Assembly: GCF_018598225.1 (NCBI RefSeq)
Contig: NZ_JAHESF010000001.1
Span: forward strand, 416,950 to 480,949
Source: Chryseosolibacter histidinae
Lineage (GTDB): Bacteria > Bacteroidota > Bacteroidia > Cytophagales > Cyclobacteriaceae
Reading direction: 5' to 3'
Length of the DNA: 64,000 bases
The notes under the pieces were generated by a model. The model ran no database searches, was not told the origin of the DNA, and saw nothing but the letters and a program-made list of their open reading frames with translations. Below are positions 1 to 12,273 of this stretch, piece by piece (the stretch's first letter is position 1; every line of letters begins with the position of its first letter). Made by a program: the position numbers and the translations under genes.

Positions 1-665
1 AAGGTTCTATCGTTGATGCCGAAAACGGTGAGCCCTTCCAGACAGACGTGTACAGCACTACCGGCGCCTCCGGTGTCCGCATCAAGATGATGGAATACAG
101 CTGGAGCGAAACGCCTACGCCGTACTATATGTATACCATGATGGATGGTAAGTTCAATAATACCAAGATCTTCAAAGGCGAATATGGTGTAACACCCGAA
201 GGCGCGTTTGTTGCAGTGCCTGAGGAAAGAATCCAGATCTCCGGTACGGTTGAAAAGAACTATGCGGTTGAGCCGTTCCTGCGTGTGGAGTGGATAGGAG
301 AGCCTGTGGTCAATGGCGACGGTACAGCTACTGTTCAGGCCAGGATCACCCGCGGCACCACGCATCCTGATTATCAGCAGCCACTCACAGAGGTATGGTT
401 GTTTGTCAGCGAGGTTCAGTTCGTCGGATTTGTCAGCTACAGTACGGTCTATTCCACCAAGTTAACAGGTGCAACGTTGCCGGCATTGGGAGGAACTGTT
501 TCCATTACTACGGGCTGGCCCAATGGTGTTAACAGTGGTACACAGCAGAAATTCCCTGGCTATTCAAGAAAATATTTTCTCAGGGTAGGCGCCAGAACCA
601 GCAAGCAGGCGTTCAGTACCAATGTTTTCAACTACAGCACCATCAAGGAGATCACCACAAATTAA
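1..665 (+). CDS. DUF3823 family SusE/F-like lipoprotein, 5' end outside window
   Basis: The reading frame is open from base 3 to the stop at 665, so the start codon and the lipoprotein signal lie outside the window; 220 residues are visible. The run GSIVDAENGEPFQT at the edge, then KFNNTKIFKGEYGVTPEGAF, matches the N-terminal domain of DUF3823 proteins of Bacteroidota. The second half (about residues 85-220) is a beta-rich domain ending YFLRVGARTSKQAFSTNVFNYS, typical of the C-terminal DUF3823 domain. Such proteins are surface lipoproteins encoded just after SusC/SusD pairs and are thought to bind glycan. The mannosidase genes that follow suggest an alpha-mannoside ligand; this is inferred from context only. 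Confidence 0.75.
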   Translation, partial: GSIVDAENGEPFQTDVYSTTGASGVRIKMMEYSWSETPTPYYMYTMMDGKFNNTKIFKGEYGVTPEGAFVAVPEERIQISGTVEKNYAVEPFLRVEWIGEPVVNGDGTATVQARITRGTTHPDYQQPLTEVWLFVSEVQFVGFVSYSTVYSTKLTGATLPALGGTVSITTGWPNGVNSGTQQKFPGYSRKYFLRVGARTSKQAFSTNVFNYSTIKEITTN

Positions 666-713
666 GCTTCACCCGCCTACGGAGAATTTCGGCGGGCGCA
701 GCATGTGCATTTT

Positions 714-743
714 CCGAAGGCATCTAACCGGTGCCTTCGGGAA
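714..743 (+). terminator. hairpin after the DUF3823 gene
   Basis: CCGAAGGCA (714-722) and TGCCTTCGG (732-740) form a perfect 9-bp stem around a 9-nt loop, and three further A/T or G-T pairs can extend it. No T run follows, so it may be a weak terminator or only an mRNA-stabilising stem. A second, smaller stem (CCCGCC 672-677 with GGCGGG 691-696) lies just before it. Both separate the lipoprotein gene from the GH92 gene. Confidence 0.4.
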
Positions 744-745
744 TA

Positions 746-753
746 CACCTTTG
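746..753 (+). promoter_or_regulatory. candidate -7 box for the GH92 gene
   Basis: CACCTTTG differs by one base from the Bacteroidota -7 consensus TAnnTTTG and lies 80 bases before the chosen GH92 start at 833. The same CACCTTTG occurs before the oxidoreductase operon near 62388. No clear -33 TTG element was found, so this stays tentative. Confidence 0.35.
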
Positions 754-832
754 TTCAACTATTGCCGGAAAACGGCAAATGGCCACTGCAATTCTTGATG
801 ATGGCCAGAAACATTTAACTATTTTTAGCATA

Positions 833-3800
833 ATGAACAGACTACTTCTTTTTTTGCTTCTGTCCTGTATCGGTATGGATCGCGCGGTGGCCAACGACAT
901 CTGGAGCATTGGTAAGAATGATAATTCTTCTGCCGACCTGGCACTGGGACCGGCAGACTACAAGAAATTTCTCAGCAAAGACTTCGGCTTTGAAGACCGC
1001 TTTTTTTTGATCGGGAGGTCGAATGCCGCAGCTGATTTTCCTTATGTATTACCCGGTCCGGACGACACTTGGGGAGGAACCTGGGGAACCTCCGGCTGGC
1101 GTACGCATGAGATTAACATCCTCTTCGCGTTAAAATCGCTTCCCGCAGGTGGGCAGTGGAAGCTGGTGATCGATCTTGTTGACACGCATCCCCGCAAGTC
1201 GTTGCTGAAGGTAGGGATCAATGAGCAGCAGTATGAGAAGTTTTTGCTCAAAGGTGTTTCCGATGCATCGCTGACGGATGGTGGCACTGCCGGCCGTGAA
1301 AAGATTCTGGAGATCCCCTTGCGCGACGGTGTTATTCACCGGGGAGGAAATGGCATCACCATCTCCGTGCTCGAAGGCGCCTGGGTGGTGTTTGATCACG
1401 TACGCCTCGAAGGTCCCGAGGGCGCCACGCTGGCATTGAACGATGAAGTATTTATCCGCAGCGTAAAACCAGCTGCCTATGAGCTGAACCAGGGAAAGAA
1501 AAATATTCAGCCATTACTGGTGGATGTAGAGCACCTGAGCGGAAAGCCACGCATCGAAGTACAGTTAGACGGAAAAACAATTTACCAGACAACATTAGAC
1601 TCTGCCCGTTACCAGCTGGAGGCGCCTATGCCGGCCGTTGCTAAAACAGGCAGTGCACAGTACCGCATCCTGGTAAATGGCAAAGAAGCAGAAACAGGAA
1701 CCATTCAGCGATCGCCCGGTAAAGTGCAAACACCGGCAGACTATGTGGATACACGCATCGGCACAGCACACTCGCGTTGGATGATCGCACCCGGTCCGTG
1801 GATGCCGTTCAGCATGGTGAAGCTCAGTCCCGATAACCAGAACATGGGCTGGCAGGCAGGATATCAGCCCACCTTCGAGACCATCGGTACCTTCAGCCAC
1901 ATTCACGAGTGGACAATGGCCGGCCTGGGCCTGATGCCTACCAATGGTGAATTGCAAACAAAAGTAGGAGACCAGTTCAACCCGGATTCCGGCTACCGGT
2001 CACGGATCGACAAGGCTACGGAAGAAGCACCGCTGGGCTACTATAAAATATACATGACCGACACCCGCATCTGGGCCGAAGTAACCGCCACAGAACGGGC
2101 CAGCTTTCAACGTTATACATTTCCGAAAGATCAGGACGGCCGCGTGATGGTAGACTTGCACGTGCAGGGAGAATACGACTACAAACTGTTGGATATTGAG
2201 ATCAAAAAAGTAAGCGACTATCGCATCGAAGGCAGCAGCCATCAGATCTCACCGAGGCCTCATGTGTGGAGCGATGATGCCGACCAGGAATATACGGTGC
2301 ACTTTGTGATCGAGTTCGACCAGCCCATCAAGAAGATCGGCGGCTGGCTGGACAACGAGGTGGTGGACATCAGCAAGCTTCAAGGCAAGAACCTGAAAGA
2401 GGCGGGAGCGTATGTAGAGTTCGACACGAAGAAGTCGGCAGTGGTGCAAGCCCGTTCGGGTATTTCGCTGGTGAGCGTAGCCAATGCAGGGGAGAATCTG
2501 GACAAAGAGATCTCGAAACCTTTCGGCTGGCGTTACGATGCCGTGGTGGCCAACCAGAAGAAAGTGTGGAACAACTACCTGTCGCGTATTGCCATCACTT
2601 CCGATAACCGCCTCGAGAAAGTACGCTTCTATACCAACTTCTTCCGTTCGCTTTGCCGCAATACGTGGAGCGATGTGAATGGCGAATGGATAGCGCCGGA
2701 TGAGACCAAACATAAGTTCACCAACCCAGATCAGGAGGCCCTGGGGTGTGATGCCTTTTGGAATACGTTCTGGAACCTGAACCAGCTCTGGAACCTGGCC
2801 ACACCGGAGTGGTCGTCGAAGTGGGTCAATTCTCAGCTGGCAATGTATGATGTCAACGGGTGGCTGGCAAAAGGCCCGGCTGGAATGGAGTATATCCCCG
2901 TGATGGTAGCGGAGCACGAAATACCGCTGATGGTATCGGCCTACCAGATGGGCATCCGCGACTTCGAAAAAGAGAAAGCTTTCCAGGCAATGAAGAAAAT
3001 GCAAACGACCCCCGCCGGCCCCGTTGCGGGAGGTTTTGCGGGCAACCGCGATCTGGTGCCGTACATGAAGTATAAATATGTGCCTGCCGACCTGGGACGA
3101 TTCTCGAACTCCCTGGAATATTCTTATGACGACTGGACCGTGTCACAGTTTGCAAAAGCGCTTGGCAAGGAAGCAGATTATAAAGTGTTTGCCGAGCGAG
3201 GCGAATGGTGGCGCAATGCCTTTAACCCGAAGAATGGTTATGCGCAACTGCGCGATAGCAAAGGAGCGTTCATAGAGCCCTTCGATCCGTTCCAGTCAGG
3301 CCGCAACGAAGAATACGTGGAAGGCAACTCGTGGCAGCTCAGCTACTTTGTTCCGCAGGATGTTCCCGCGATGGCTGAGATCATGGGACGCAAGGCTTTC
3401 GTCGATCGCCTGAACTGGGGCTTTGTGGCCAGCGAGCCATGGCGTTACAACGCGCCAAACGATCAGTACTGGGATTATCCCGTGGTGCAAGGCAACCAGC
3501 AATCCATGCATTTTGCTTTCCTGTTCAACTGGGTGGACCACCCCTGGTTGACGCAGAAGTGGAGTCGCTCGATCCTGGAAGAATACTACGGCGGCGGCCT
3601 GGCCAATGCGTATCTCGGCGACGAAGACCAGGGCCAGATGAGCGCCTGGTTTGTGATGGCGTCGATAGGGCTCTTCCAGACCGATGGTGGATGCCGAGTT
3701 GAGCCCGTGTACGAGATCGCCAGCCCGCTGTATGAGCAGATCGTGATCGACCTCGGTGGACGCTACGGCCGCGGTAAGCAGTTTGTGATCGAAGCGAAGA

Positions 3801-3967
3801 ACGCTTCACGCAACAACAAGTATATACAGTCCGCTACACTCAATGGCAAAACATTAAGTTCCTTCAAGTTCCCGGCAAGCGAGCTGTTGAAAGGAGGCAA
3901 GCTCACGCTGGTGATGGGCGACAAGCCAAACAAGCAGTGGGGTATCGAAGCAGGAGCGAAAAAATAG
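833..3967 (+). CDS. GH92 alpha-mannosidase with N-terminal PL4-type domain
   Basis: 1044 residues, exported exo-acting alpha-mannosidase. The start at 833 is preferred over an upstream GTG at 731, because it begins a clean signal peptide (MNRLLLFLLLSCIGM, cut near AVA-ND) and 731 falls inside the upstream hairpin. Residues about 20-215 (IWSIGKNDNSSAD, ending VFDHVRLEG) resemble the C-terminal sugar-binding-like domain of family 4 polysaccharide lyases. A beta-sandwich linker follows, and GH92 proper starts near residue 310 (DYVDTRIGTAHSRW). The conserved acidic cluster GDEDQGQMSAW (D930, E931, D932) provides the catalytic base and calcium site in this inverting family. The GH38 gene starts 10 bp after the stop, so they are probably co-transcribed. 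The exact linkage cleaved cannot be read from sequence. Confidence 0.88.
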   Translation: MNRLLLFLLLSCIGMDRAVANDIWSIGKNDNSSADLALGPADYKKFLSKDFGFEDRFFLIGRSNAAADFPYVLPGPDDTWGGTWGTSGWRTHEINILFALKSLPAGGQWKLVIDLVDTHPRKSLLKVGINEQQYEKFLLKGVSDASLTDGGTAGREKILEIPLRDGVIHRGGNGITISVLEGAWVVFDHVRLEGPEGATLALNDEVFIRSVKPAAYELNQGKKNIQPLLVDVEHLSGKPRIEVQLDGKTIYQTTLDSARYQLEAPMPAVAKTGSAQYRILVNGKEAETGTIQRSPGKVQTPADYVDTRIGTAHSRWMIAPGPWMPFSMVKLSPDNQNMGWQAGYQPTFETIGTFSHIHEWTMAGLGLMPTNGELQTKVGDQFNPDSGYRSRIDKATEEAPLGYYKIYMTDTRIWAEVTATERASFQRYTFPKDQDGRVMVDLHVQGEYDYKLLDIEIKKVSDYRIEGSSHQISPRPHVWSDDADQEYTVHFVIEFDQPIKKIGGWLDNEVVDISKLQGKNLKEAGAYVEFDTKKSAVVQARSGISLVSVANAGENLDKEISKPFGWRYDAVVANQKKVWNNYLSRIAITSDNRLEKVRFYTNFFRSLCRNTWSDVNGEWIAPDETKHKFTNPDQEALGCDAFWNTFWNLNQLWNLATPEWSSKWVNSQLAMYDVNGWLAKGPAGMEYIPVMVAEHEIPLMVSAYQMGIRDFEKEKAFQAMKKMQTTPAGPVAGGFAGNRDLVPYMKYKYVPADLGRFSNSLEYSYDDWTVSQFAKALGKEADYKVFAERGEWWRNAFNPKNGYAQLRDSKGAFIEPFDPFQSGRNEEYVEGNSWQLSYFVPQDVPAMAEIMGRKAFVDRLNWGFVASEPWRYNAPNDQYWDYPVVQGNQQSMHFAFLFNWVDHPWLTQKWSRSILEEYYGGGLANAYLGDEDQGQMSAWFVMASIGLFQTDGGCRVEPVYEIASPLYEQIVIDLGGRYGRGKQFVIEAKNASRNNKYIQSATLNGKTLSSFKFPASELLKGGKLTLVMGDKPNKQWGIEAGAKK

Positions 3968-3977
3968 CAGGAGCGAG

Positions 3978-6900
3978 ATGATCAGAAAGATATTGACAGG
4001 CGGATGCCTTATGGTGTCCGCGCTGTTCTTCCCATACATTGCCGGCGCCCAGCAACTTGACGTATATACGCCGGTGCCTGTCGGGGAGATCAAAGTTGAA
4101 TCCAGCAGTGAGCTTTCCGGATTTCCGGATGAGGAGACCGTTAATGGAAGCGGTATGAAAGGCCACGGCCATACTTCTCACAACCTGGGAAAGACCATGT
4201 GGATCTCTCAGGTTTCAGAAACATCCGTACAAGCCCGCCCGCAGACCCATGAAGGTGTGGTGTGGCTGCTGTATACGTTCAATACAGAACGGAAGCCCGC
4301 CTTTGTTGAGATCTGGAATCATAATCAGCACGACCATACACGTCGTGGCCTGCGGAAAGTTTATTTACAATATTCCCGCGATGGCCAGCACTGGCAGACC
4401 CTGAAAAACGGTGACCGCGACTATTTTATGATCCCCGAATCACTGGGTAAGAAAGAAGAACCGGCAGACTTTCACCTTGACCTGTCCGGCATCAGCTTCA
4501 AGTATTTCTGCATCACCGCTGACAAACAGGAAGGGAATTATTACCACGACGGCTCGCCGAATGTGCTGGAAGACGCACGGTGGAAGCACCAGAACGTTAA
4601 TTACTATGGACTGAGCGAGATCCGCTTCTACGAAAAAAAGAAACGCGCATTAAGCAGTGTTGCAAAGATCGATGATATTTCCTTTATCCCGACACAGGGC
4701 TATCGCAAAACACCGGAAGGGCCGCGCCGCGAATACAAAGTTAAGTTCAACAACCCGCTGTTTGACGGTGGCACTGTAGAAGTTTCGTTCGCCGGCAAAA
4801 AGATCAGCGAGCAAATTCCGGCTTCGAAGATGGGGCTGTATGAATTGACAGCCTTGTTTCCACCAGGCCTGATGGAGGAAGCAGTACCAGTAGCCGTCAC
4901 ATTCAAGAGCCGCCAGGGCAACGTGCAAAAGAACATGGTCATGGAAGGCGCACGCAAATGGGAAGTGTACTTTCTGCCGCATTCTCACCTGGACATTGGC
5001 TACACTCATCGCCACGAAGATGTGATGAATTTACAGCTGCGGAACATCGATCAGGCTGTGACGCTGGCGGAGCGCACCAAAGATTACCCTGAAGGATCGC
5101 CGTTCAAGTGGAATATAGAGACCATGTGGCCGGTGAGCGAGTACCTGGAGCGTTATAAGAATACAGCAAAACTCGAGGCATTCAAGGCAGCGGTGAAAGA
5201 TGGCCGCGTTGCCTTGAACGCTTCGATCGGCAATATCCTGACAGGCCTTTGCAAGCAGGAAGAGATCACACACTTGTTCGACGACGCGCATCGTGTCGGA
5301 AAGGACCTGGGTGTGGAGGTGCGTTCCGTCATGATGTCGGACGTGCCAGGGGAGTCATGGGGAATGGTTACGGCGATGGCGGAAAACGGCATGAAATATT
5401 TTTCCATGGCCCCCAACTATGTTCCGTACCTGGAAACCGGTGGCAGCCGCGTAGGCCTCGCGAACAAGGAGTGGGGCGACTACCCGTTCTACTGGGCGTC
5501 GGCATCGGGCGAGGAGAAAGTGTTGTGCTGGTCTACCGGCAAAGGTTACTCGTTCTTTCACGACTGGCTGACGGGAAAACTTTCGTCCAGCGGCCTGGAT
5601 CCCATCTGGGAATACCTGAATACACTGGAAGTAAAAGAATTCCCCTATAACTTTTCATACCTGCGATACACGGTCAATGGCGACAATGGCCCTCCGGATA
5701 CAGACATGCCCGACGTTATCCGGAAGTGGAACGAGCAGTATGAGTATCCGAAGTTTCACATCGGCACAACGGAAGCGCTGTTCACAAGGTTTGAGCAGGC
5801 CTACGGAGACAAGCTGCCCGTATTCAAAGGTGACTTCACGCCCTACTGGGAAGATGGCGCTGCATCGACGGCTGAAGAATTGTCGCTGAACCGGTACAAT
5901 GCCGAACGACTCAACCAATTGGAGATCCTGTGGTCGATAACAAGCCATGGGACACCAGATCTTCATTCTGGTAACACGGGTTCGATTCCCGTACGGACTA
6001 CACACTATCCGTCAGAGAGCTTCTACCACGCATGGCGTAATGTAGCCCTGTTCTCCGAACATACCTGGGGCGCATCTGCCAGCGGCCCGGAGCCCGATTC
6101 TGAGTTTACCCGCGCGCTCTGGAAACAGAAACAAGCTTTCGCCCTGAACGCCGATTCTATTACAAACCAGATCACCAACGCGTTTAATACCGCTGTCAAT
6201 GCCAACGAACGCGGGCAGTATATCCAGGTATTTAACACGAACCTCTGGCCCCGCACGGATGTGGTAACCTTTTCAACACCACAGGATCTCCAGGGGAAGA
6301 AGCTCGTAGACGAAAACAACCAGGAGGTAAGTTTGCAGAAGACGGGCGAGAACACATGGATGTTCATGGCCACCGGGGTGCAGCCATTGTCTTCAAAGGT
6401 ATATCGCATTGTAACTTCCAATACAGCCGCATCTAAGAGCGCGTTTTCCCTCGAAGGAAATACACTATCAAACGGTGTCATCTCGGTATCAGCTGATGCA
6501 CAGACCGGAGCTATCACGGCGTTGACCGATAACACGGGCTTCAACTACGCCACCGGTAAAGGACTGAACGAATATATTTATACAGGACGAAATGCAGCGT
6601 CTCCACAGTATGTAACAAGGGTGAGAAGCATCGAACGTTTGAATGACGGCCCGGTATCGGCTACGCTACGGGTTACGGCGGATGCACCGGGCTGTTATTC
6701 GCTGGTGCGCGATATCACCGTGTACAAAGGTATTAAACGTGTCGACCTCCGGAATGTCGTTGACAAGATCGATAACCGGGAGCGCGAAAGTGTGCGGTTT
6801 GCATTCCCGTTCAACATCAGCAATGCTGAAACGGTCATCGACCTGGCCTTTGGTGAGATCCGCCCCGAGCGTGAGCAGCTGACCGGTGCAAATAAAAACT

Positions 6901-7496
6901 TCTACTCCGTCAACAATGGTGTGTCGATATCCGGTATGCGGAGGAATATACTTTTAACAACGGTAGGTACACCCATACTGGAAGTAGGAGGCATGCAGGG
7001 TGAAGCGTGGATGTCTGATACCAAAGAGTTCCTTGACTGGAGCCGTGCTGCTTCATCCTCGCCAACGGTCTATTCATGGGTGATGAATAATTCGTGGAGA
7101 ACGAACTATAAGGCCTCACAATCGGGTAAAGTGGAGTTTCGGTATTCCATCATTCCACTGGAACCGTATGCGCACGAAGCTAAACAGCGTGGCGTTGAAA
7201 TAGCACAACCACTGGTTGCTGTGATGTCTGACAATGCCAGGCCTTACAAGACATTGTTCCGCGTGGGCGGTAATAACAAGATCGCTGTATCAACAATACA
7301 TCCCTCGAAAGATCAAAAGGGTTACCTGGTGCGGTTGGTGAACCTTTCGCCTCAGCCGGTACAATCGTCATTGGAATGGGATGCGTTGAAACCTGCCGAA
7401 GTCTCCCAGTGTGATAACGAAGAGCGGGGTGTTAAACCAGCAAGCAACTCATTTTGGATGAAGCCCTACGGAACCATAACATGGAAGGTAGAATGA
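3978..7496 (+). CDS. GH38 alpha-mannosidase carrying a tRNA-derived insert
   Basis: 1172 residues with an N-terminal signal (MIRKILTGGCLMVSALFFPYIAGA). Residues about 30-215 form a discoidin-like (F5/8 type C) sandwich. The GH38 catalytic domain starts near residue 325. HSHLDIG supplies zinc ligands H337 and D339, MSDVPGES holds the likely nucleophile D455, and SEHTWG holds the third zinc histidine H695. C-terminal mannosidase sandwich domains follow. The enzyme should be a retaining, zinc-dependent alpha-mannosidase of the periplasm. Residues 658-675 (GTPDLHSGNTGSIPVRTT) are translated from a piece of a tRNA-Glu gene, in frame and 20 residues before H695, so activity is uncertain. The stop overlaps the sulfatase start as ATGA. 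Confidence 0.87.
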   Translation: MIRKILTGGCLMVSALFFPYIAGAQQLDVYTPVPVGEIKVESSSELSGFPDEETVNGSGMKGHGHTSHNLGKTMWISQVSETSVQARPQTHEGVVWLLYTFNTERKPAFVEIWNHNQHDHTRRGLRKVYLQYSRDGQHWQTLKNGDRDYFMIPESLGKKEEPADFHLDLSGISFKYFCITADKQEGNYYHDGSPNVLEDARWKHQNVNYYGLSEIRFYEKKKRALSSVAKIDDISFIPTQGYRKTPEGPRREYKVKFNNPLFDGGTVEVSFAGKKISEQIPASKMGLYELTALFPPGLMEEAVPVAVTFKSRQGNVQKNMVMEGARKWEVYFLPHSHLDIGYTHRHEDVMNLQLRNIDQAVTLAERTKDYPEGSPFKWNIETMWPVSEYLERYKNTAKLEAFKAAVKDGRVALNASIGNILTGLCKQEEITHLFDDAHRVGKDLGVEVRSVMMSDVPGESWGMVTAMAENGMKYFSMAPNYVPYLETGGSRVGLANKEWGDYPFYWASASGEEKVLCWSTGKGYSFFHDWLTGKLSSSGLDPIWEYLNTLEVKEFPYNFSYLRYTVNGDNGPPDTDMPDVIRKWNEQYEYPKFHIGTTEALFTRFEQAYGDKLPVFKGDFTPYWEDGAASTAEELSLNRYNAERLNQLEILWSITSHGTPDLHSGNTGSIPVRTTHYPSESFYHAWRNVALFSEHTWGASASGPEPDSEFTRALWKQKQAFALNADSITNQITNAFNTAVNANERGQYIQVFNTNLWPRTDVVTFSTPQDLQGKKLVDENNQEVSLQKTGENTWMFMATGVQPLSSKVYRIVTSNTAASKSAFSLEGNTLSNGVISVSADAQTGAITALTDNTGFNYATGKGLNEYIYTGRNAASPQYVTRVRSIERLNDGPVSATLRVTADAPGCYSLVRDITVYKGIKRVDLRNVVDKIDNRERESVRFAFPFNISNAETVIDLAFGEIRPEREQLTGANKNFYSVNNGVSISGMRRNILLTTVGTPILEVGGMQGEAWMSDTKEFLDWSRAASSSPTVYSWVMNNSWRTNYKASQSGKVEFRYSIIPLEPYAHEAKQRGVEIAQPLVAVMSDNARPYKTLFRVGGNNKIAVSTIHPSKDQKGYLVRLVNLSPQPVQSSLEWDALKPAEVSQCDNEERGVKPASNSFWMKPYGTITWKVE
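5949..6000 (+). repeat. tRNA-Glu(TTC) 3'-portion inside the GH38 gene
   Basis: The 52 bases fold as the 3' two-thirds of a tRNA. The end of the D stem (GGAC) is followed by an anticodon stem CCAGA/TCTGG (5955-5959 and 5967-5971) around loop TCTTCAT with anticodon TTC. Next come a T arm ACGGG-TTCGATT-CCCGT (5976-5992) and a 3' acceptor strand ACGGACT with discriminator A. The 5' acceptor and D-arm start are absent upstream. Position 33 is C instead of the nearly universal T. It is therefore a fragment, not a working tRNA. It is translated in frame within the mannosidase. Confidence 0.85.
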
Positions 7497-9061
7497 AGAT
7501 AGCACGTACCATATCCGTAGCGTTGCTGCTGCTCATGGGTGTGATGGATCTTGCCCGTGCACAGACGTCCCGAGCATCATCGTCACAGCATAAGCCGAAC
7601 ATCATCTTCATCATGTCCGATGATCACGGCTACCAGGCTGTGAGTGCCTATAGTAATAAGCTGATCCAGACACCCAACATCGACCGCATCGGCCGTGAGG
7701 GCGCCGTGATGCGGAACGCGTTTGTGACCAACTCAATCTGCAGTCCTGCCCGTGCGGTGATCATGACCGGTAAATACTCGCACATGAATGGCATGCGCGA
7801 TAACGGCACGTACTTTGATGGCCATCAGCAGACCCTTCCGAAGATCCTGAAAGCCAATGGATATCGCACCGCGTTGGTAGGGAAGTGGCACCTGTTCAGT
7901 GAGCCAACGGGTTTCGATTACTGGAACATACTTCCCGACCAGGGGCACTATTACAACCCCAAGTTCATTAAGATGGGGAAGGACACGGTCTACACGGGTT
8001 ACGTGACGGATGTCACCACAGACCTGGCCCTCGATTGGATCGGGCGGCACCGGGATCAGCCATTCTTTATCATGTTACATCACAAGGCGCCGCACCGTAA
8101 CTGGATGCCACCGCAGCAATACCTGCGGGAGTTTAACGATCGCCGGTTTGCGCTGCCCCATGACTTCTATGATGACTATGCCGGCCGCGAGGCATTGCAA
8201 CGACAACTGATCTCGATGAAAGAAGGACTGGACGTGCGTTACGACAGCAAAGTTCCGTGCGATACCTGTACCGTTGCGAATGTAAATCACTGGGCACCGG
8301 CCGAGTTCCAGCGCGAGATGGAGCGGCTGACACCTGCCGAACGCCAGGCATGGGACAAAGCATACCAGGATGAATACAAAACCTTTGCACAGATCAAGGA
8401 CAAAGACCAGTTGCTGCGATGGCAATATCAACGCTTCATGGAAGATTACCTTCGTTGCGTGCATTCGGTAGACGACAACATTGGCCGTGTGCTGAAGTAC
8501 CTCGATGACAACGGACTCGCCAGGAAGACCATCGTAGTGTATATGTCTGACCAGGGCGTATACCTCGGCGAGCATGGACTCTACGACAAACGTTTCATGT
8601 ACGAGGAGTCATTCCGCACGCCAATGCTGATCCGTTTCCCGCAGGCTATTTCACCGCGTCAGCAGATCGACGCTTACGTGCTGAACCTGGACGTGGCGCC
8701 CACATTCCTTGACTTTGCCGGTATTGCCATCCCGGGAGACATGCAGGGCGAGTCCATGAAAACGCTTCTACAAAAGGGAAAGGTTAAGGATTGGCGCAAA
8801 GAGCTGTATTATCACTACTACGAAAAGTCGTTTGGTGCTACCGCGCATTATGGCATCCGCACAGAACGTTACAAGCTGATCCACTTCTACGACCCGGGCA
8901 ATTCATGGGAGCTGTATGATCTGAAGAACGATCCTCATGAAATGCATAACCTTTACGGTGATCCAGCGTACAGGAACACCGTGGAGAAGCTTAAAGCGCA
9001 GCTGAAGTCCCTGCAGCGTAAATACAACGACCCGTACGACGAGAAGAACAATAAATTCTAA
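7493..9061 (+). CDS. family S1 (formylglycine-type) sulfatase
   Basis: 522 residues, periplasmic arylsulfatase-type enzyme that removes sulfate esters from sugars. The start at 7493 overlaps the GH38 stop (ATGA) and gives a signal peptide MKIARTISVALLLLMGVMDLARAQ. The metal site NIIFIMSDDHGY and the maturation signature CSPAR with C83 (converted to formylglycine) are present, as are LVGKWH and the C-terminal DQGVYLGEHGLYDKRFMYEE block. Length is normal for the S1 family, and the sequence looks like subfamilies common in Bacteroidota glycan loci. Coupling with three mannosidases implies a sulfated mannose-containing substrate, which is inference. An S1 maturase is needed but is not in the window. 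Confidence 0.9.
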   Translation: MKIARTISVALLLLMGVMDLARAQTSRASSSQHKPNIIFIMSDDHGYQAVSAYSNKLIQTPNIDRIGREGAVMRNAFVTNSICSPARAVIMTGKYSHMNGMRDNGTYFDGHQQTLPKILKANGYRTALVGKWHLFSEPTGFDYWNILPDQGHYYNPKFIKMGKDTVYTGYVTDVTTDLALDWIGRHRDQPFFIMLHHKAPHRNWMPPQQYLREFNDRRFALPHDFYDDYAGREALQRQLISMKEGLDVRYDSKVPCDTCTVANVNHWAPAEFQREMERLTPAERQAWDKAYQDEYKTFAQIKDKDQLLRWQYQRFMEDYLRCVHSVDDNIGRVLKYLDDNGLARKTIVVYMSDQGVYLGEHGLYDKRFMYEESFRTPMLIRFPQAISPRQQIDAYVLNLDVAPTFLDFAGIAIPGDMQGESMKTLLQKGKVKDWRKELYYHYYEKSFGATAHYGIRTERYKLIHFYDPGNSWELYDLKNDPHEMHNLYGDPAYRNTVEKLKAQLKSLQRKYNDPYDEKNNKF

Positions 9062-9080
9062 GACCAGAAAATCACTTCCA

Positions 9081-11429
9081 ATGAAAGTTCAAGTTTTGAA
9101 AAACATACTGACTGCGTTCCTGTTGATCGCCATGGCAACCACCGTGCACGCCCAGGAGGATTATACACAATGGGTGGATCCCAACATCGGTACCGCGCAT
9201 AGCCGCTGGTTCTTTTATACGCCCGCAGCCGTACCGTTTGGCATGGCGAAACCTGCGCCGGCAACCAACGCGCACTATGGCAACGTACATGGCTGGGACG
9301 CCGTTGGCTACGATCATCGCCACGAGTCCATCGAAGGATTCCCGAACCTGCACGAGTTCCAGGTAGGCGGTATCGTGTTCATGGCCTCGACCGGTACGCT
9401 GAAGACAATTCCCGGAAAGCTGGAGAAGCCGGAAGAAGGTTATCGCTCACGGTTCGATCACAAAGATGAAGTGGCGGCGCCTGGATACTACTCGGTTATA
9501 TTGAAAGATCACCGCATCAAAGCGGAGCTAACCGCCACAGCGCGCGTGGCACTGCATCGTTACACATTCCCGGCCGGCAAGGAGTCGCATATTCTGTTCG
9601 ACATCGGCAACAAGCAGGGCGAGAGTGGAAATGTAAAAGATGCCAAAGTATACATGACACCCGATGGTCGCATCGAAGGTTTTGTCACCACGCTTCCCGT
9701 ATACGTTCAAAAGTATCAGCCCGGTGCGGAAGTCAGCATGTACTTCTCGGCGGTGGTTGATAAGAAGCCTGCTTCGTTCGGTGTCTTTAAAGGTGCAGCC
9801 GCGCGGGCAGGAGTGACTGAAGAAACAGGCCCGGGCGCAGGTGTTTACCTGACCTTCGACACACAGGACCAGGAAAGTATCACCGTCAAGGCTGGCTTCT
9901 CGTACACCTCCATCGAAAACGCTCGCCTTAATCTGCAGGCAGAAGCGAAAGACCTCACCTTCGATCAGGCAAAAGCGAAAGCGCACACCACCTGGAACGA
10001 CTACCTGGGCCGTATCCGTGTAGAAGGAAAAGTACGCGAAGACAAACTGAAGTTCTATACAGGGTTGTTCCACGCTTTGCTGGGCCGCGGTCTTGCCAGT
10101 GATGTGAATGGCGCTTATCCGAGAAACAACGGTACCGTTGGGCAGATCCCGCTGGACGCGAAAGGCAAGCCTGTACATAATCATTATAATACCGATGCCG
10201 TGTGGGGCGCCTACTGGAACCTCACACAACTGTGGGCGCTGGCTTATCCTGAGTATTACTCCGACTTCGTGAAAAGCCAGCTGCTGGTGTACCAGGATGC
10301 GGGTTGGTTGGGCGATGGCATTGCCAACAGCCGTTACGTTTCAGGTGTGGGCACCAACTTCGTCAGCCTGGTGATGGCCGGTGCTTACATGGCAGGCATT
10401 CGCGACTTCGATGTAGCAAAGGCCTACGAGGCATCACTCAAAAACGAGATCGATGGAAAAGATCGTCCGCACGGATCGGGTAAGCTGGATGTAGACCAGT
10501 TTGTGAAACTTGGATACGTGCCTCACCTTGACAAGGGCGTTGGGGGAGGAGAGCGCTGGCAGTTTTCAGCATCCCACACACTCGAGTATTCGTTCAGCTC
10601 GTATGCGGTAGCACAATGGGCAAAGGCATTGGGTAAAAAAGAGGACTACGAAAAACTGATGCGCCTGTCCCGCGGGTGGGAGCACCTGTTCGATCCGAAG
10701 CTGAAGCTTGTGCGCCCGAGGCTGGCCAATGGTCAGTTCATTGATAACTTTAAGCCGGGTGAGCCATGGCGTGGTTTCCAGGAAGGAAATGCCTGGCAGT
10801 ATACCTTCTATGTGCCGCATGACCCGGAGGCCCTTGTGAAAAAAATTGGCCGTGAGCGCTTTAACATGCGCCTCGACAGCATCTTCACAACCTCACAGAA
10901 AAATGCTTTTGGCGGCGGCACCACCCTCGATGCATTCTCCGGTCTGGCAGGCCTGTACAACCACGGCAATCAACCCAATCTTCATACCTCGTGGCTCTTC
11001 AACTTCTCCGGCAAGCCATCGCTTACCCAGAAATGGGTGCGGGCCATCTGCAATGAGTTCTATGGCACCACGGGTATTCATGGGTATGGCTATGGGCAGG
11101 ATGAAGACCAGGGGCAACTGGGCGCCTGGTACGTTATTGCCAGCATGGGCCTGTTCGATGTAAAAGGCCTCACGGACCTGAAGCCATCGTTTGGCATCGG
11201 GAGCCCGGTGTTCGACAAGGTCACCATTCAGCTCCGTGCACCCTATGCAACGGGTAAGGAGTTCGTCATCGAGACACAGAACAACAACGGTCAGAACATC
11301 TATGTGCAGTCCATCAACCTGAATGGCAGAAAGGTTAAGAAGTCATTTGTTGACCTCGAAGATGTAAAGAGGGGCGGTAAGCTGGTGCTGCAAATGGGCG
11401 ACCGGCCGAAAGACGATTATAGCAAGTAA
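9081..11429 (+). CDS. GH92 alpha-mannosidase
   Basis: 782 residues, the shorter paralogue of the GH92 at 833. It has a signal peptide (cut near TVHAQ-ED) and then the GH92 domain directly, without the PL4-like module. DPNIGTAHSRW near residue 33 opens the catalytic region. GNQPNLHTSWLFNF and GQDEDQGQLGAWY (D674, E675, D676) are the substrate and catalytic acid/base blocks, as in calcium-dependent inverting GH92 enzymes. It follows the sulfatase by 19 bp and is the last gene of the mannoside operon; a long hairpin follows. Two GH92 enzymes with different linkage preference are common in one locus, but which linkages these cut is unknown. Confidence 0.9.
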   Translation: MKVQVLKNILTAFLLIAMATTVHAQEDYTQWVDPNIGTAHSRWFFYTPAAVPFGMAKPAPATNAHYGNVHGWDAVGYDHRHESIEGFPNLHEFQVGGIVFMASTGTLKTIPGKLEKPEEGYRSRFDHKDEVAAPGYYSVILKDHRIKAELTATARVALHRYTFPAGKESHILFDIGNKQGESGNVKDAKVYMTPDGRIEGFVTTLPVYVQKYQPGAEVSMYFSAVVDKKPASFGVFKGAAARAGVTEETGPGAGVYLTFDTQDQESITVKAGFSYTSIENARLNLQAEAKDLTFDQAKAKAHTTWNDYLGRIRVEGKVREDKLKFYTGLFHALLGRGLASDVNGAYPRNNGTVGQIPLDAKGKPVHNHYNTDAVWGAYWNLTQLWALAYPEYYSDFVKSQLLVYQDAGWLGDGIANSRYVSGVGTNFVSLVMAGAYMAGIRDFDVAKAYEASLKNEIDGKDRPHGSGKLDVDQFVKLGYVPHLDKGVGGGERWQFSASHTLEYSFSSYAVAQWAKALGKKEDYEKLMRLSRGWEHLFDPKLKLVRPRLANGQFIDNFKPGEPWRGFQEGNAWQYTFYVPHDPEALVKKIGRERFNMRLDSIFTTSQKNAFGGGTTLDAFSGLAGLYNHGNQPNLHTSWLFNFSGKPSLTQKWVRAICNEFYGTTGIHGYGYGQDEDQGQLGAWYVIASMGLFDVKGLTDLKPSFGIGSPVFDKVTIQLRAPYATGKEFVIETQNNNGQNIYVQSINLNGRKVKKSFVDLEDVKRGGKLVLQMGDRPKDDYSK

Positions 11430-11458
11430 AGAAGAACAGGGTGTAGGGTACTCGGTTC

Positions 11459-11504
11459 AATCAGCGCAGAGTCATTATCCATATGATTCTGTCGCTGATT
11501 TTGA
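11459..11504 (+). terminator. long hairpin ending the mannoside operon
   Basis: AATCAGCG (11459-11466) pairs with CGCTGATT (11493-11500), and the inner parts AGA/TCT and TCAT/ATGA extend the stem with small mismatches. A short TTTT run closes it. It lies 30 bases after the second GH92 gene and before the next promoter-like box, which suits a rho-independent terminator. Confidence 0.6.
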
Positions 11505-11514
11505 AAAAAAGCGC

Positions 11515-11522
11515 TAAGTTTG
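11515..11522 (+). promoter_or_regulatory. -7 box for the DUF6090-like gene
   Basis: TAAGTTTG is an exact match to the Bacteroidota -7 consensus TAnnTTTG, 19 bases before the ATG at 11542 and just after the operon terminator. The TTG at 11501 is too close to serve as a -33 element. Confidence 0.45.
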
Positions 11523-11541
11523 GGGTTTTTCAATCCTACTT

Positions 11542-12273
11542 ATGGCAGAACTCGAAGTAATCAAGCACACCAAAAAAGCATATCAGATCTTCGGTAGTGA
11601 TAGTTCTCTCTTTCATAAAATAAAGGAGTTCTTACTGGAAATATTCATTATCGTGTTCGCCGTGGGTATCACTATCTGGTTCCATGACATGGCCGAACAC
11701 CGGCACCAGCAGAAGGAAGTGAAGGAGTTTTTGATCGGATTGAAAAACGATTTAACCAACGACCTCTCCGAAATGCAGGCGGACCAGGCCGGATATCGAT
11801 ATCAGCAGGCAGCGTTTCTTTATTTTCGTTCTATGAAGGCGGATGCTGCCGGGGCAACGGATAGCCTGAGAAAATACACCAACGCGATCTTTAATAAGGT
11901 AGAATTGGTTCAGAACAATGGACGTTTTGAAGGGTTCAAGTCTTCTGGCAAGATCGGGAACATCGAAAATAAAAAAATGCAGAACGATATTCTTGATCTT
12001 TATCAGGAATTGATCCCATCCCTGCTGAATACAACGCAGCTGTATAACCTGCAGAAAGACCGGCTTATCGTTCTTGTTGAACAGCACGCGCGGATCGATG
12101 ACGTTCAGCGAAGATTGGTGATCGAAGACGTGATGAAAATGGACCAGGCGAAAATCATGTCGGCTACACTGGGCGCTTTCCCAACTGAAATTATCAAACG
12201 TTACGATACCTGTATATCCAGAATTAACGACATCGTGAAAAGTATCGATGAACAGTATCCTGATTCGGAGTGA
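11542..12273 (+). CDS. DUF6090-like membrane-anchored protein
   Basis: 243 residues, function unknown. A short cytoplasmic head is followed by one membrane helix at about residues 30-47 (FLLEIFIIVFAVGITIWF). A basic, coiled-coil-prone segment comes next (HRHQQKEVKEFLIGLKNDLTNDLSEMQADQ) and then a helical periplasmic part to the C-terminus. The layout of a single early helix with the FLLE..IIV..GI pattern followed by KEFLxGLKxDL is that of the DUF6090-type proteins of Bacteroidota. It has its own promoter-like box and a hairpin at its stop codon, so it is probably a single-gene unit. No catalytic motif is seen. Confidence 0.6.
   Translation: MAELEVIKHTKKAYQIFGSDSSLFHKIKEFLLEIFIIVFAVGITIWFHDMAEHRHQQKEVKEFLIGLKNDLTNDLSEMQADQAGYRYQQAAFLYFRSMKADAAGATDSLRKYTNAIFNKVELVQNNGRFEGFKSSGKIGNIENKKMQNDILDLYQELIPSLLNTTQLYNLQKDRLIVLVEQHARIDDVQRRLVIEDVMKMDQAKIMSATLGAFPTEIIKRYDTCISRINDIVKSIDEQYPDSE

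Follow-up and report, generated by a model that had tools for sequence, protein, structure and literature searches.

A 52-base piece of a tRNA-Glu gene lies in frame within a GH38 alpha-mannosidase gene of Chryseosolibacter histidinae

The mannosidase gene and its neighbours

The window, a 64,000-nucleotide stretch of DNA (G000:C34:416950-480949) from an 8.04 Mb genome, carries on its forward strand an uninterrupted gene of 1172 codons for a predicted GH38 alpha-mannosidase (3978..7496). The neighbouring genes comprise a sulfatase gene (7454-9061) and two for GH92 proteins (731-3967 and 9081-11429). Pfam searches with the mannosidase detected PF01074 (42.7 bits) and PF07748 (32.8 bits), both above the cut-off of 25, and PF17677 at 20 bits, under its cut-off of 22. 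A Foldseek search with the model of the protein returned 40 best matches that were all described as alpha-mannosidases or GH38 proteins, headed by PDB 5kbp (E 4e-36 or better; TM by target 0.71); a sequence search of the PDB gave no relative of solved structure at 1e-3. The N- and C-terminal domains and the predicted fold thus place the gene product among the GH38 alpha-mannosidases. It shares Pfam domains and fold with the enzymes of PDB 5kbp and 2wyi, but differs from GH38 alpha-mannosidases in about 17 extra residues within one helix-helix turn, absent from 119/119 aligned homologues.

A tRNA-Glu piece within the reading frame

Positions 5950..6001 of the window (+ strand) hold a 52-base copy of tRNA-Glu(TTC), equivalent to canonical nucleotides 22-74 and touching codons 658-675. 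A search of the window's own genome with 5930-6010 matched these bases (21-72 of the query; 98 percent, E 3.5e-19) to G000:C122:111346-111397 (-), with 51 of the 52 identical. This match lies in a tRNA-Glu(ttc) gene of the same genome (G000:C122:111344-111418, minus strand), which we call the parent. The sole mismatch is C for T at 5961, which is position 33 in the anticodon loop; position 34, in the anticodon, is identical in piece and parent.

An earlier note, made from the letters of the window, had proposed that a tRNA-Glu fragment lies in frame within the mannosidase and that its parent could be sought in the genome; the 51 identical bases and the open frame bear this out. The note placed the fragment at 5949-6000, which is correct as to the tRNA piece but one base off in both boundaries. 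The parts it named are all located within the revised span: the anticodon arm (5955..5971, with C33 at 5961 and the anticodon TTC at 5962-5964), recognised from sequence, parent alignment and a hairpin in the predicted mRNA fold; the T arm (5976..5992), recognised from sequence and a second predicted hairpin; and the 3' acceptor strand (5993-5999). The piece further comprises the 3' strand of the D stem, A73 and C74, and it lacks the acceptor 5' strand, the D 5' strand and the D loop.

A covariance-model check, also suggested in that note, did detect tRNA similarity in the insert (Rfam tRNA model, E 0.0011), but at 27.1 bits against a cut-off of 29, a score to be expected because the piece lacks its 5' third, where non-tRNA sequence stands instead. 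ARAGORN called no tRNA in the window. With this silence, the sub-cut-off score and the missing 5' parts, the insert does not qualify as a complete tRNA gene. When 3 mismatches or fewer were allowed, a 25-base core pattern occurred once in the window, against a mean of 0.00 in 100 shuffles. Judging from the open frame, the piece is presumably translated into protein.

Comparison with homologues

We aligned the window protein with the 119 next best of its 2328 homologues (E up to 1e-20), of which the closest share 86-89 percent whole-protein identity with the mannosidase; protein cluster P0001 has four member sequences. Between the conserved SIT and YP motifs, 93 of the 120 aligned proteins have 4 residues, 26 have 5, and one, the window protein, has 21. 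The insert is the sole run of at least two residues that more than 95 percent of the 120 lack. Both the expectation that this segment is normally only a few residues long, with about 17 inserted here, and the suggestion that residues at about 658-675 would prove unique upon alignment were confirmed among these best 120 of 2328 homologues, 119/119 others having the short form. An ordinary GH38 loop was ruled out on the same grounds. Residue 675 is followed 20 residues later by H695, as the earlier note had counted; this histidine, which we take to be zinc-binding, is invariant in the 52 sequences of alignment A1.

At the DNA level, 12 nt separate the SIT codons from the Y codon at five relative loci (L004, L006, L007, L008 and L009), against 63 in the window (7 + 52 + 4). 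The 7 nt before the piece (5943..5949, +) follow the SIT codons directly and, like the 4 nt after it (6002..6005, +), are presumed original from the 12-nt spacing at these loci, with the protein alignment as further support for the latter. The net gain in length fits an addition of 51 bp, one base being shared at a junction, or of 52 bp together with the loss of one. Going by length, a junction homology of at most one base would fit. Relatives include Chryseosolibacter indicus, Dawidia soli, a Flammeovirgaceae bacterium and an uncultured Bacteroides sp., and the bases at the insertion site are identical in C. indicus and in a second genome of the window's genus (G001).

Predicted effect on protein and mRNA

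In an AlphaFold model of the window protein (52 sequences, mean pLDDT 84.3), helices 632-657 and 679-693 flank the insert, and pLDDT falls below 50 at residues 658-670. The model of the insert-free homologue P0003 (51 sequences, mean pLDDT 85.0) has the corresponding helices at 620-643 and 650-665, with a mean of 94 at 641-650. These models suggest that the turn between the helices is disordered with the insert and confidently structured without it. An effect of the insert on confidence after H695 was considered and dropped, as the loops there are low in both models (696-703 in the window protein, 667-674 in P0003). The whole mannosidase gene is under purifying selection, a result that says little about the period since the insertion.

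In the predicted mRNA fold of 5925-6025, the anticodon and T hairpins are retained (-29.4 kcal/mol). The mean of 200 shuffles was -23.5 kcal/mol (sd 3.3), and 7 of the 200 fold as well as the native sequence.

Age and donor of the piece

Divergence from L006 and L007 is saturated at synonymous sites (dS of 1.7 and 1.8, with dN about 0.10). The insertion is likely, from these comparisons, to be much younger than the splits from both relatives, because the piece is only one base off its parent.

A family search with the piece and its flanks gave matches in 106 of 118 genomes, and we read 14 relative tRNA-Glu loci (L048-L061), picked as best matches. C74 is kept in all 14, and 12 of them encode no CA after it. 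Nucleotides 22-74 of the parent are unchanged in the five other genomes read at L048-L052, so the donor species is indistinguishable by sequence: an attempt to name it failed, the own tRNA-Glu and these five being identical over that stretch. The anticodon arm with C33 occurs in one of the 390 genomes of the order, namely the window's own, and no other genome among the 390 bears it as a donor signature. Phage and plasmid donors were likewise set aside, since the two phage and five plasmid records found each gave a weaker or shorter match. The earlier note had read C33 as drift after the event; this is plausible, but a copying error during insertion fits equally well.

Origin of the insert

That a DNA event placed the 3' piece of a tRNA-Glu gene in the mannosidase without breaking its frame, as the earlier note proposed, is supported by the absence of the residues from 119/119 aligned homologues and by the parent in the same genome. 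We propose, with a probability of about 0.6, that one-off illegitimate DNA repair inserted the 3' two-thirds of the tRNA-Glu gene, and that the insert was kept probably as a tolerated loop. We infer the capture itself to have run as follows. The source would be DNA of a tRNA gene, belonging to this genome or to an indistinguishable close relative, either captured at a break by end joining or copied in by a polymerase switching templates; of the mechanisms the earlier note had offered, template switching is a candidate, whereas integration or excision of an element found no direct support. The frame would have been preserved, the mannosidase gene staying open because the piece carries no stop in frames +0 and +2, out of three forward frames, and the length gained is divisible by three. 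The helix-helix turn would thereby have been lengthened by about 17 residues into a loop that is predicted to be tolerated.

Ku and LigD-type polymerases, as a class, join ends with little homology. The own genome has one Ku match over the cut-off and three matches to LigD-type polymerase, two of them over the cut-off, which show a capacity for end joining and not its use. At the junctions as they stand now, end joining and template switching look alike. One observation counts against DNA capture: the ends of the piece fall at tRNA landmarks, namely G22 at the D-stem start and the gene-encoded tail base C74, which random capture does not predict. Furthermore, the chance that 52 bp drawn at random from this genome fall entirely inside one of its about 52 tRNA genes is about 1.6e-4, a figure that must be weighed against the selection of this finding for being a tRNA.

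These landmark ends speak for an alternative that we regard as unlikely, in which a break was filled by copying a tRNA-Glu molecule or fragment, rather than its gene, into DNA; the copied part would extend from the tail (C74) to the D loop. The piece stops at the last base common to the 14 relative loci, where 12 encode no CA next, and it starts directly past the D loop, which in tRNAs often bears modified bases; that tRNA genes are a tiny fraction of the genome also speaks for an RNA source. However, the RVT_1 profile gave no match in the own genome (assembly 100 percent complete) and a positive control in 3 of 14 genomes, so that no reverse transcriptase for a retrocopy was found there by this profile. 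Position 34, the usual modified base, is unaltered and the change is at 33, and the landmark ends might be coincidence. If a tRNA molecule was the template, a broken chromosome would have received a copy of RNA in a cell where no reverse transcriptase is recognisable, and an enzyme loop would now be translated from what was a tRNA end; moreover, an mRNA still folding the anticodon and T arms, as predicted, could be read by tRNA-modifying enzymes.

Slightly less probable again is that the 52 bp are the relic of an integrative element targeting tRNA-Glu, an attP-type copy of the tRNA 3' part left by faulty integration or excision. Attachment blocks in tRNA genes typically span the anticodon arm to the 3' end, and the piece resembles them in this. 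A virus record, L109 (24,663 bases), holds at 44-1112 an intact tRNA-Glu followed after 105 nt by a tyrosine integrase gene, and likely represents an element integrated at tRNA-Glu in a relative. Against this origin, the mannosidase gained only about 51 bp and no other element sequence was seen; L109, perhaps a fragment, shows no second copy of the site; and the exact 48-base block in its C33 form is present in 0 viral contigs, its T33 form occurring in one (L109), while phage and plasmid matches are weaker or shorter. A search for an element at the parent tRNA-Glu, which the earlier note had recommended, found the parent but no recognisable integrase in the surrounding 20 kb (ORFs of at least 110 aa, by eye), and neither an integrase nor a second attachment copy was seen by eye at the parent or among the window ORFs at 1-12000.

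An assembly or chimera artefact is very improbable: the own genome is split in 122 contigs, but the insert lies within a contig of 480,949 bases, with the same gene on both sides and the frame kept, and it differs by one base from its only parent gene. That an ordinary loop came to look like tRNA-Glu by chance or convergence has a negligible probability and was ruled out by the E value of 3.5e-19, the 0.00 core matches in shuffles and the lack of the loop in every other aligned homologue.

Relation to known systems and significance

Short templated or captured insertions at breaks, with little junction homology, are known from end joining and short-patch illegitimate recombination. The mannosidase insert resembles them as a short ectopic copy without a mobile element; it differs in that its donor is a tRNA gene, its ends fall at tRNA landmarks and its product is in frame in an enzyme. 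With tRNA 3'-end attachment sites it has in common the same part of the tRNA gene, to which an element with a tyrosine integrase adjoins in L109, but the mannosidase has no element, integrase or second flank, the net gain being 51 bp.

In-frame DNA inserts in bacterial genes are already known, above all the Rickettsia palindromic elements (PMC10969869). They share with the mannosidase insert that both are small, in frame, in a conserved gene and fold-compatible by prediction, but they form families of about 150-bp elements in many copies, whereas the mannosidase holds one 52-bp copy from a tRNA gene (PMC10969869). Searches of the own genome turned up no copy beyond the parent gene other than the insert itself, which is not the pattern of a multi-copy element. 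Our literature search, which covered few subscription journals, returned no earlier case of a lone tRNA-gene piece lying in the coding frame of a bacterial gene.

On present evidence, a segment of a conserved enzyme was born of tRNA sequence in one step, in a case where the type of donor gene is identified along with the recipient and with kin that have no insert. It illustrates how a protein gene can absorb non-coding sequence at the turn between helices and remain intact. It also raises the question of whether short inserts in bacterial genes derive from DNA or from abundant RNAs, for which the ends of the pieces would be informative; a single case is an anecdote until others are found.

Other tRNA-like sequences in the genome and its kin

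We searched the own genome for further tRNA pieces with 31 of its 48 tRNA sequences as queries (E up to 0.01), leaving out the 17 of a tRNA array described below, and these 31 queries gave no second insert-like match. The other hits fell on tRNA genes or were cross-matches from one tRNA to another; there were also weak stretches of 70-80 percent, some of them outside called tRNAs, and one partial tRNA-Trp copy. This last one reproduces 28 bases of the tRNA-Trp 5' end at 96 percent identity (G000:C78:49102-49129), about 60 bases before the tRNA-Trp gene. An Rfam tRNA scan of the genome, in which 150 of 344 candidates were scored, gave 58 matches, 5 of them sub-cut-off including that of the window.

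The genus mate G002 has a second match to the piece, which we rejected as a like case. It belongs to remnants of several tRNAs strung together at about 1000-1130 of L077 (G002:C1:2271600-2273700). They comprise a tRNA-Arg 3' end (24 bases), a tRNA-Glu 3' end (28/28 bases) to which a Leu-like anticodon arm is joined, and the anticodon arm of a tRNA-Thr (16 bases). No tRNA is called there by ARAGORN, and the locus looks like a decayed, recombined tRNA cluster.

A tRNA-like locus on contig C100 was rejected as tRNA and is rather YrlA-like, with scores under the cut-off: two tandem YrlA-like (Y RNA) matches of 46.8 and 38.5 bits (cut-off 69) lie at 2029-2152 of L044 (G000:C100:97500-101500), with a Band 7/SPFH gene downstream in the same orientation. 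Among the 48 ARAGORN tRNA calls in the own genome, 45 end in C without a full CCA, which may be a convention of the program. The 17-tRNA array, at 10350-13775 of L045 (G000:C42:78500-94000), is unlike the chromosomal set, lies near a contig end and is perhaps part of a mobile element.
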